Below, piece by piece: positions 984 to 2,444 of a stretch of DNA of 5,790 nucleotides (the first letter of the stretch is position 1; each line of letters opens with the position of its first letter). The notes beneath the pieces were generated by a model. That model was not told the DNA's origin, did no database searches, and saw nothing but the letters and a program-made list of their open reading frames with translations. The stretch covers positions 7,695 through 13,484 of the forward strand of contig DJFO01000094.1 of the NCBI GenBank assembly GCA_002432555.1, written 5' to 3'. The DNA comes from Marinagarivorans sp. UBA5870. GTDB taxonomy: Bacteria > Pseudomonadota > Gammaproteobacteria > Pseudomonadales > Cellvibrionaceae. Both the position numbers and the translations under genes were made by a program.

Positions 984-1139
984 ATGCGAGAAAAAATACG
1001 TCTGAATTCAAGCGCTGGTACCGGTCATTTTTACACCACTACCAAAAACAAGCGCACCATGCCGGAAAAAATGGAAATCAAGAAGTACGATCCGGTTGTA
1101 CGTAAACACGTGATGTACAAAGAAGGCAAGATTAAATAA
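984..1139 (+). CDS. rpmG: 50S ribosomal protein L33 (bL33)
   Basis: This 51-codon gene runs from ATG 984 to TAA 1137-1139. The Shine-Dalgarno GAGGAG (971-976) sits 7 nt before the start. The product begins [20 protein letters not shown], continues with KNKR and [16 protein letters not shown], and is clearly bL33 of the large ribosomal subunit. It contains no cysteine, so it is the zinc-independent (C-minus) paralogue. Whether a zinc-ribbon copy exists elsewhere cannot be told. E. coli bL33 has 55 residues because of a longer N-terminus; the 51-residue form starting MRE is the Pseudomonas-like one. The gene is co-transcribed with rpmB and followed 14 nt later by a terminator. Confidence 0.98.
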
Positions 1140-1153
1140 ATTGTCTCTCATCC

Positions 1154-1179
1154 AAAGCCCGGTTCAGCCGGGCTTTTTT
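1154..1179 (+). terminator. Rho-independent terminator of rpmB-rpmG
   Basis: AAAGCCCGG (1154-1162) and CCGGGCTTT (1168-1176) form a 9-bp stem around a 5-nt loop, and the T run ends at 1179. The hairpin lies 14 nt after the rpmG stop. Its A-rich 5' flank is only three bases, so it should act mainly on the plus strand. Confidence 0.95.
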
Positions 1180-1502
1180 GTGCCCTTTCGCCGCCGACCC
1201 TAAGCCGCAAGATCCCGCGTTCCAACCACAACGCATTCCACCCACAAAGTGCCCGGCCCCTAGTGCCCGCCAACGCCTGGACTGCTGTTGCCACCGACGC
1301 ACAGACGTCGCCGCCCACTCGCAATTCAACGGAACCTTATCGGGTCGACAGCTTTCCGGCTGAGCCCCTGAGCGTGGCGGGGCTGGCTGCCTCTTTCACG
1401 GAGCATGGCCGGCGTTGAAAGCACGAGTCACGGTGTGCATCATATTTCACCCCAAACTCGGCACATTCTTGAGCTACGTCTTGCCGATCCACTTTCCCTG
1501 TC
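1180..1502. other. gap between rpmG terminator and mutM; no gene seen
   Basis: No convincing coding sequence is present; the small open frames here have no Shine-Dalgarno and resemble nothing I know. On the plus strand 1201-1320 is strikingly C-rich and G-poor (about 53 C against 25 G in 120 bases). That composition is compatible with a Rho loading region, but also with chance. An inverted repeat AGCCCC (1363-1368) / GGGGCT (1379-1384) has no T run after it. The gap probably holds the mutM promoter near 1415-1443. Confidence 0.6.
1415..1443 (+). promoter_or_regulatory. possible sigma-70 promoter for mutM
   Basis: TTGAAA (1415-1420) and CATCAT (1438-1443) are separated by 17 nt and match the consensus at 4 of 6 positions each. 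Transcription would start near 1450, giving a leader of about 60 nt before the TTG start. The strong terminator after rpmG makes a separate mutM promoter likely, but this particular site is only a modest match. Confidence 0.3.
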
Positions 1503-1515
1503 GGAGTTTGCATTG
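1503..1515 (+). promoter_or_regulatory. Shine-Dalgarno and TTG start that fix the mutM N-terminus
   Basis: GGAG at 1503-1506 lies six bases before TTG 1513-1515. The next codons, CCA GAA, supply the obligatory Pro2-Glu3 of the Fpg family. An in-frame ATG at 1405 would add 36 residues in front and bury the catalytic proline, so it is rejected. A TTG start usually lowers initiation, consistent with a low-abundance repair enzyme. Confidence 0.9.
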
Positions 1516-2328
1516 CCAGAATTGCCCGAAGTTGAAACCACACGCCGCGGCATTGAACCTCACGTTCGCGGCCAGACCATCGATCGAGTCGTGATTCGCA
1601 ATGGACGGCTGCGCTGGCCGGTGCCGAATGATCTCCCGTCGCGATTGGCGGGAAAGCAACTGCTGGCGGTTGACCGACGCGGCAAGTATCTTCTGTTGCG
1701 ATTCCAGCATGGCACGGCCATTTGGCATTTGGGAATGTCCGGCAGTCTCCGCCTCGTAACTGCCGCAGATGCACCCGGCAAACACGACCACGTCGATTGG
1801 GTTTTCTCCGGTCGTCACATCCTGCGGTTCAATGATCCGCGTCGTTTTGGCGCTCTGCTATGGACGGAGGCGCCTCCGGAAGAGCATTTTCTCCTGGCAC
1901 ATTTAGGTCCAGAGCCACTGACCGACGTATTTGACGGCCCATTGTTATTTAACCTTACGCGCAAACGAACCCAGCCGATTAAAACCTGGTTGATGGACTC
2001 GCGAAACCTTGTGGGAGTGGGCAATATCTACGCGAACGAGGCGCTTTTCAGCAGCGCAATTCACCCCCGCAAGCTGGCGGGTGCGCTTTCGCGACGCGAA
2101 TGTAACACCCTCGCGACTGAGCTGAAAAATATTCTCGAATACGCGATTCGCCGCGGCGGGACGACCCTACGAGATTTTGTCGGTGGTGACGGCAAGCCAG
2201 GGTATTTTGCGCAAGAACTGCAAGTCTACGGCCGAGGCGGGGAACCCTGCAGGAAATGCCGGAAACTTTTGACAGAAAAACGACTGGGACAGCGGACGAC
2301 GGTTTATTGTACTCATTGCCAAAAATAA
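1513..2328 (+). CDS. mutM: formamidopyrimidine-DNA glycosylase (Fpg/MutM)
   Basis: This 271-residue bifunctional glycosylase/AP lyase excises 8-oxoguanine and formamidopyrimidines from DNA (E. coli Fpg has 269 residues). The start is set at TTG 1513, which gives fMet-Pro-Glu-Leu-Pro-Glu. After Met removal, Pro2 is the Schiff-base nucleophile and Glu3 the general acid, so any upstream start would inactivate the enzyme. GGAG (1503-1506), 6 nt before the TTG, supports this choice. The N-terminal beta-sandwich includes the conserved Lys58 (DRRGKY), HLGMSGSLR (72-80) and DPRRFG (108-113). The helix-two-turn-helix segment contains VGVGNIYANEALF. The C-terminal zinc finger is CX2C-X16-CX2C (CRKC and CTHC), with the DNA-contacting Arg in GQRTTVYC. 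The gene is separated from rpmG by a terminator and a 373-bp gap, and is convergent with polA and the candidate sRNA. No plus-strand terminator follows. Confidence 0.97.
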   Translation: MPELPEVETTRRGIEPHVRGQTIDRVVIRNGRLRWPVPNDLPSRLAGKQLLAVDRRGKYLLLRFQHGTAIWHLGMSGSLRLVTAADAPGKHDHVDWVFSGRHILRFNDPRRFGALLWTEAPPEEHFLLAHLGPEPLTDVFDGPLLFNLTRKRTQPIKTWLMDSRNLVGVGNIYANEALFSSAIHPRKLAGALSRRECNTLATELKNILEYAIRRGGTTLRDFVGGDGKPGYFAQELQVYGRGGEPCRKCRKLLTEKRLGQRTTVYCTHCQK

Positions 2329-2363
2329 AAAACCCCCAGTGGCCTTGGGGTGAACCACTGGGG
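2321..2363 (-). terminator. Rho-independent terminator of the candidate sRNA
   Basis: On the minus strand CCCCAGTGG (2363-2355) and CCACTGGGG (2342-2334) form a perfect 9-bp stem with a 12-nt loop. G2333 and six T (2332-2327) follow, then A and five more T. The T run overlaps the last codons of mutM on the other strand. In the plus direction the stem is followed by TAACTATG, so it should not terminate mutM transcripts efficiently. Confidence 0.88.
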
Positions 2364-2411
2364 TAACTATGTGTACGAATAACTCATCTAGAGCGAACGT
2401 ACACCGTAGGC
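2321..2411 (-). ncRNA. candidate sigma-E-dependent small RNA downstream of polA (Spot 42/ErsA position)
   Basis: A transcript starting near 2411 on the minus strand would be about 85-91 nt long. It has a 7-nt 5' end, then stem-loop 1: GTGTACG (2404-2398) pairs with CGTACAC (2377-2371) around a 20-nt loop. A short A/U-rich linker follows. The terminator hairpin comes next: CCCCAGTGG (2363-2355) pairs with CCACTGGGG (2342-2334), followed by a T run. A GGAACTT-N16-TCCAA promoter lies just upstream, and a second terminator (2523-2494) isolates the unit from polA. In enterics Spot 42 (spf) lies directly downstream of polA with a CCCCAGUC-type terminator stem. As I recall, Pseudomonas has the sigma-22-dependent sRNA ErsA in the same place. 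The location, promoter and terminator are seen in the sequence; homology and function are inferred. No open frame longer than seven codons fits inside it. Confidence 0.6.
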
Positions 2412-2416
2412 AAAAA

Positions 2417-2444
2417 TTGGAGTGGGCGCGACTGGCTAAGTTCC
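2417..2444 (-). promoter_or_regulatory. sigma-E/AlgU-type promoter of the candidate sRNA
   Basis: Read on the minus strand, GGAACTT (2444-2438) is a full match to the ECF sigma-E/AlgU -35. After 16 nt, TCCAA (2421-2417) fits the TCnnA -10. Transcription would begin about six bases later, near 2411. Such promoters respond to envelope stress in gammaproteobacteria. There is no good sigma-70 alternative in the 60 bases upstream of the hairpins. Confidence 0.6.

Follow-up and report, generated by a model that had tools for sequence, protein, structure and literature searches.

In the window, the whole 5,790-nt stretch of DNA analysed here, the region past polA probably holds two tandem small RNA genes, sRNA1 and sRNA2, each with its own ECF/sigma-E-type promoter and its own terminator. 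The second, sRNA2, is probably made under RpoE and would act in trans as a repressor through a C-rich loop. Both promoters and both terminators are present in the DNA. Among relatives, the promoter, its spacing and its locus are conserved, and the stem of the C-rich hairpin undergoes matched changes around a kept loop. Matched changes around a recurring C-rich loop are the pattern expected of a regulator that grips G-rich messages, and the two genes probably form a conserved, stress-induced sRNA gene pair of the ErsA/sX13 kind.

Two promoter-terminator units between polA and mutM

Read along the minus strand, polA (DNA polymerase I, 5388-2665) is followed by the sRNA1 promoter, sRNA1, the sRNA2 promoter, sRNA2 and the convergent neighbour mutM (1513-2328, plus strand). 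The mutM open reading frame includes 36 residues ahead of TTG 1513-1515 (plus strand) that lie outside the family match, and the TTG start suggested by the family alignment is probable. The window lies on a contig of 33,590 bases. Its PolA reaches a best identity of 81%, with Pseudomaricurvus and Exilibacterium at 71-72%, and metagenome contigs have PolA at 75-81%. The nearest family genomes by PolA are G426 (80%), G427 (79%) and G428 (83%, residues 347-907). They come from a family list, read as Cellvibrionaceae, that also has Pseudomaricurvus, Aestuariicella and Gilvimarinus. All three carry the sRNA1 and sRNA2 genes between polA and mutM-matching DNA.

The initial annotation described a GGAACTT-N16-TCCAA promoter, a 5' hairpin and a terminator with a T run, and each of these lies on the minus strand where it had been placed. 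The -35 box GGAACTT (2438-2444) and the -10 box TCCAA (2417-2421) are separated by a 16-nt spacer. A start at G2411 is likely and gives a predicted transcript of about 85 nt (2411-2327), in line with the 85-91 nt proposed earlier. The 5' hairpin (2371-2404) pairs GTGTACG (2404-2398) with CGTACAC (2377-2371) around a 20-nt loop. Next comes a C-rich-loop hairpin merged with the terminator (2334-2363), in which CCCCAGTGG (2363-2355) pairs with CCACTGGGG (2342-2334) around the loop TTCACCCCAAGG (2343-2354), the proposed seed. G2333 and a U tract (2327-2332) complete the element, and the U tract overlaps the mutM stop codon (2326-2328, plus strand).

The strict promoter pattern GGAACTTN{15,17}TCNNA has one match in the window against 0.04 expected, and an 86-nt RNA (2411-2326) folds at -36.5 kcal/mol with z = -4.52, a value as low being reached by 0 of 200 shuffles. 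A terminator scan of the window found nine, a count not above the shuffled mean of 8.0. The longest are the sRNA2 hairpin (11 pairs) and a hairpin at 2524-2501 (10 pairs). The plus-strand copy of the sRNA2 hairpin has no T run.

Because a GAACTC-N16-TCATA promoter lies upstream of it, the terminator at 2524-2501 can be assigned to another small RNA gene, sRNA1. Its -35 box GAACTC (2633-2638) and -10 box TCATA (2612-2616, 16-nt spacer) lead to a predicted transcript of about 113 nt (2606-2494, minus strand), with the T run of the terminator extending to 2494. The looser promoter pattern that detects this promoter has two matches in the window against 0.45 expected. Within sRNA1, a 42-nt core containing GCTCCTAGTG (2531-2572) is identical in the window and in the clade members L146 and L147, with one difference in L148. 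The single sRNA gene of the initial annotation, sRNA2, is thus present as one half of a tandem pair whose other half, at about 2606-2494, had been missed.

Promoter conservation past polA and the sigma factor

Using mutM loci as a guide brought up polA in 0 of 80 kept stretches (at most 3 kb per side, some shorter), so polA loci were chosen for comparison. DNA past the polA stop was taken from 140 genomes, and after removal of two rows that were too short, 138 loci remained; a further locus, L091, was left out as a fragment. The loci were picked mostly by PolA match rank and partly by guess at more distant groups, and they cover only some of the genomes that gave a PolA match (sets of 262 and 136). 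Of the 138 loci, 81 have the promoter GAACTx-N15-17-TCxxA no more than 300 nt past the polA stop, and 57 lack it there. Twenty dinucleotide shuffles gave a mean of 1.1 at the same distance (largest 3), and the reverse strand gave 2 of 138. The proposal of a polA-downstream sRNA gene with a sigma-E-type promoter is supported; motif and locus recur in relatives well beyond shuffles.

With spacers of 12-20 nt allowed, 141 rows (the window and the too-short rows among them) gave 116 promoter pairs, of which 90 had 16 nt, 25 had 17 and one had 18, and none had 12-15, 19 or 20. A G precedes the TC of the -10 box in 90 of 115 pairs; the TCCAA of sRNA2 is without it. At least two promoters lie within 500 nt of the polA stop in 28 of the 138 loci and in none of the shuffles. 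These 28 include Gilvimarinus polysaccharolyticus (L086) and Aestuariicella albida (L082). The tandem RNAs are near-copies in some loci, such as L212, and dissimilar in others, the window included. At L213, three promoter-terminator units occur, with promoters 77, 286 and 588 nt past polA, and RF01719 recognises two of them.

The RpoE/AlgU consensus is GGAACTT-N16-GTCnnA, and the sRNA2 promoter motif resembles it closely enough to suggest sigma-E control, as had been proposed at first. The motif stood; no wider regulon pattern emerged around it. Across the genomes of three near relatives the strict promoter word shows no enrichment (18 matches, and 52 for its reversed form), and the DNA ahead of rpoE in the relatives has no GAACT word at a spacing of 16-17. 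Both rpoE and hfq score above cut-offs in all three near relatives, each of which also has 4-7 further, weaker RpoE-family matches. These observations leave some room for the view that the RNAs are real but that a different ECF sigma factor drives their promoters, or that these respond to a signal other than envelope stress. We consider that unlikely, given the fit to the RpoE/AlgU consensus and the precedent of ErsA, which shares the polA locus and depends on sigma-22 according to a passage of PMC7565897. RpoE remains our preferred candidate for sRNA2.

Relation to ErsA, sX13 and Spot 42

Spot 42 (spf) of enterics shares the polA-downstream locus with sRNA2 and has a promoter that differs from the sigma-E type. 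The initial annotation raised Spot 42 membership, a proposal that found no backing: an Rfam scan of the window covering matches up to E 10 returned no Spot 42, and this identity for sRNA2 was rejected. The same scan returned no match to RF01719 (ErsA/Pseudomon-1) and none to sX13 (RF02232), both models having cut-offs of 50 bits. As a control, RF01719 recognises L223, L224 and L225 at 134 bits, and it scores below cut-off, at 29-41 bits, in nine loci (L206-L209, L211-L215). Among 25 loci scanned in the window's family, it gave two weak matches, L129 at 31.4 bits (E 0.034), located in that locus's second RNA, and L127 at 24.8 bits (E 0.8). RF02232 reaches 27-30 bits, also below cut-off, in L098, L127, L129, L158 and L197.

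ErsA sits in the polA-engB region (PMC8575079) and works with Hfq (PMC8395346), and RF01719 is tabulated for Pseudomonadales (PMC2864571). The sX13 RNA of Xanthomonas (Xanthomonadaceae) lies 175 bp downstream of polA, has three C-rich-loop hairpins, is described as constitutive and Hfq-independent, and represses mRNAs with G-rich motifs via its C-rich loops (PMC3771888). According to the same source, alpha-r7 sRNAs are alike in combining the polA locus with C-rich loops, and HPnc5490 of H. pylori is alike in directing a C-rich loop at a G-rich target. sRNA2 resembles sX13 in locus and in its C-rich hairpin loop but differs in having a stress-type promoter and one such loop instead of three.

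The likeness to ErsA extends to the polA-downstream locus, a promoter motif of the sigma-22/sigma-E type and a 5' hairpin. ErsA-like RNAs carry C-rich loops in the second hairpin and the terminator, and sRNA2 is alike in its C-rich terminator loop. In contrast to ErsA, with 132 nt and three hairpins, sRNA2 has about 85 nt and two hairpins and stands in tandem with a distinct RNA. The earlier suggestion of an ErsA-family analogue accordingly survives for locus, promoter type and general architecture, but is not backed by RF01719, which finds no match in the window, and the matches that would bridge the two in relatives are weak. Since Rfam recognises neither Spot 42 nor ErsA in the window, sRNA2 is best described as an ErsA/sX13-like variant on the grounds of its locus, promoter and architecture, and is filed as neither ErsA nor sX13. 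A common origin of sRNA2 and ErsA is likely.

A stronger version of this kinship would make sRNA2 an Hfq-dependent ErsA ortholog with ErsA-type targets and a seed other than the C-rich loop. Locus, promoter and architecture, the weak RF01719 match in L129 and the Hfq partnership of ErsA all fit such an ortholog. So does model R2, built from 14 ErsA-like RNAs, which matches two family loci at full length (L093, E 4e-4; L187, E 0.0016). Since the only structure in R2 is a 6-pair terminator stem, its matching reflects in large part terminator likeness, and the model carries little weight; in the window it scores highest on the terminators of the two sRNAs, at 14.2 and 12.4 bits, and gives an ordinary terminator 6.5 bits. 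Set against these points, RF01719 has no match in the window and is weak in 2 of 25 family loci, and a stretch common to ErsA-like RNAs, CUCCUU...GUGUUUAGUGUUGGCA, is absent from sRNA2, sRNA1 being the closer of the two by eye. We judge such an orthology improbable and favour an ErsA/sX13-like variant with a C-rich seed. Among the titles listed in a literature search, none concerned sRNAs at the Cellvibrionaceae polA locus; most subscription papers fell outside it, which makes this weak evidence of novelty.

Further Rfam matches in the window, to sroD, asX2, anti-hemB, suhB and Qrr, were rejected as far below their cut-offs. The sroD match (1098-1180, plus strand; 27.5 bits against a cut-off of 50) spans a terminator and the end of a 51-codon frame resembling rpmG/L33, and is probably merely that terminator.

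The C-rich hairpin and its proposed action

The motif CCCCAAG occurs at 78 places in the first 900 nt past polA in the unselected set of 138 loci, and 75 of these, in 54 loci, fall in hairpins with six or more pairs. When the set was shuffled ten times, the counts were 7-16 places and 3-11 hairpins. For a pair test, 24 rows were chosen by eye from 68 CCCCAAG places. The window's clade was excluded, as were near-duplicates, copies of terminators and seven weak-hairpin rows almost identical to one another (L188-L192, L200, L204). The loop is invariant in this set because the rows were selected for it, and the hairpin was likewise selected for. Across the 9-pair stem of these selected rows, 91.2% of cells pair against 75.8% in shuffles, changes on both sides affect 48 cells (15.3 in shuffles), and covariation reaches 0.713 (0.383 in shuffles), with 0 of 500 shuffles as high in each case; slid versions of the stem reach at most 0.171. 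Two further measures do not exceed shuffles: 8 of 9 pairs have changes on each side, where shuffles give 6.5 and 91 of 500 are as high, and there are 17 further pair types, where shuffles give 16.6 and 267 of 500 are as high. The terminator stem 2363-2355/2342-2334, singled out earlier for a compensation check, shows matched changes in relatives within the 24 selected rows.

A covariance model, R1, was built from the 24 rows with the window's clade left out of training. Its top match in the window is the C-rich hairpin of sRNA2, with 24.5 bits and E 1.1e-5, followed at 8.1 bits by the runner-up; on 76 other loci it gives 20 matches up to E 0.5. On ten whole genomes it matches in nine, with the polA locus best in all nine, six of which belonged to the training set. 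In the untrained G426-G428 the polA locus ranks first at E of about 0.008 each, and in the tenth genome, G104, from outside the family list, there is no match. With an R1 match past polA and a GAACTx-N16/17-TCxxA promoter before it, sRNA2 belongs to a group defined in the present analysis, the Cellvibrionaceae polA-downstream CCCCAAG-hairpin RNAs. In other folded members a separate terminator usually follows the CCCCAAG hairpin, whereas in the window's clade this hairpin itself continues into the U tract.

A conserved pair of terminators that only insulates polA (and mutM), its promoter-like words due to chance and no RNA of its own made there, is a very improbable reading of the locus. In its favour, both hairpins are good terminators, an ordinary window terminator also matches R2 weakly, and one relative has a C-rich-loop terminator (L299) at another site that lacks a promoter of this type. 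Against it, the promoter words and their 16-17 spacing after polA lie far above shuffles, the CCCCAAG hairpin is separate from the terminator in other family members, and its plus-strand copy in the window has no T run.

Within the clade, the two hairpins of sRNA2 behave differently. The 46 nt from 2379 to 2334, comprising the linker and the terminator hairpin, are identical in the window, L146 and L147, and L148 shares 40 nt (2369-2330) with the window. All four clade members keep the 5' stem; L146 and L148 have G-U in place of A-U, and no pair shows full compensation. The 20-nt loop 2397-2378 differs in length and sequence and is the most variable part. A variable proximal loop and a constant terminator hairpin argue against 2397-2378 and for the terminator loop as the seed. 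Both loops had been put forward as pairing regions; the first loses ground, and the second, whose CCCCAAG recurs in relatives, is on this comparison the likely seed.

Separately, window 2572-2325 (minus strand) is identical over 248 nt to L147 (G426), in surrounding polA-mutM DNA of about 72% identity, and the block covers most of sRNA1, the spacer and sRNA2. Because the spacer differs in two other clade members, selection is a less likely cause of the identity than recent recombination or an artefact of assembly in either record.

Under envelope stress, RNA polymerase with RpoE would transcribe sRNA2, which would act in trans through a seed formed by the C-rich loop (UUCACCCCAAGG) that caps its terminator hairpin. 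The CCCC loop may pair with G-rich motifs in or close to ribosome-binding sites; the paired mRNAs would be repressed, as by sX13 in Xanthomonas, but under envelope-stress control. We infer transcription, RpoE control, any need for Hfq, repression and the targets. A target pattern, CTTGGGGTN{2,11}ATG, has 35 sites in three genomes against 25 for the reversed control, with no recurring gene; of 30 sites fetched, eight open an ORF of at least 60 aa, none of the eight resembling another, and the scan yielded no convincing target.

Within one bacterial order, many sampled polA-downstream loci carry one or more sigma-E-type sRNA genes, many of them with a C-rich loop on a covarying stem. The gains include a searchable RNA model, cultured relatives suited to testing RpoE control, and a clean case of sRNA gene duplication and divergence at a fixed place. 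More tentatively, the polA-downstream stretch could be an old, fast-turning nursery of stress-induced sRNAs, in which ErsA, sX13, alpha-r7 and the present pairs share descent from, or repeated convergence on, a locus-bound design of promoter and C-rich-loop hairpin. In the window's clade, fusion of the seed hairpin and the terminator would then have left a minimal regulator of two hairpins that works in tandem with a distinct CUCC-seed partner RNA.

A DNA search of ten genomes for further copies gave long matches at the polA locus of G426-G428 only, the remaining matches being 19-46 bases long. Plasmid copies were likewise rejected, with one short match in each of 52 plasmid-collection records; the 20 matches listed each cover 32 bases at 87.5% and fall within unrelated genes or DNA that has no annotation. 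The second R1 match in G102, the C-rich-loop terminator hairpin L299 away from polA (E 1.2e-5), was set aside as a further sRNA, since by eye it is a terminator before a probable tRNA gene and its strand has no sigma-E-type promoter. C-rich terminator loops may, on this example, be commoner in this group.
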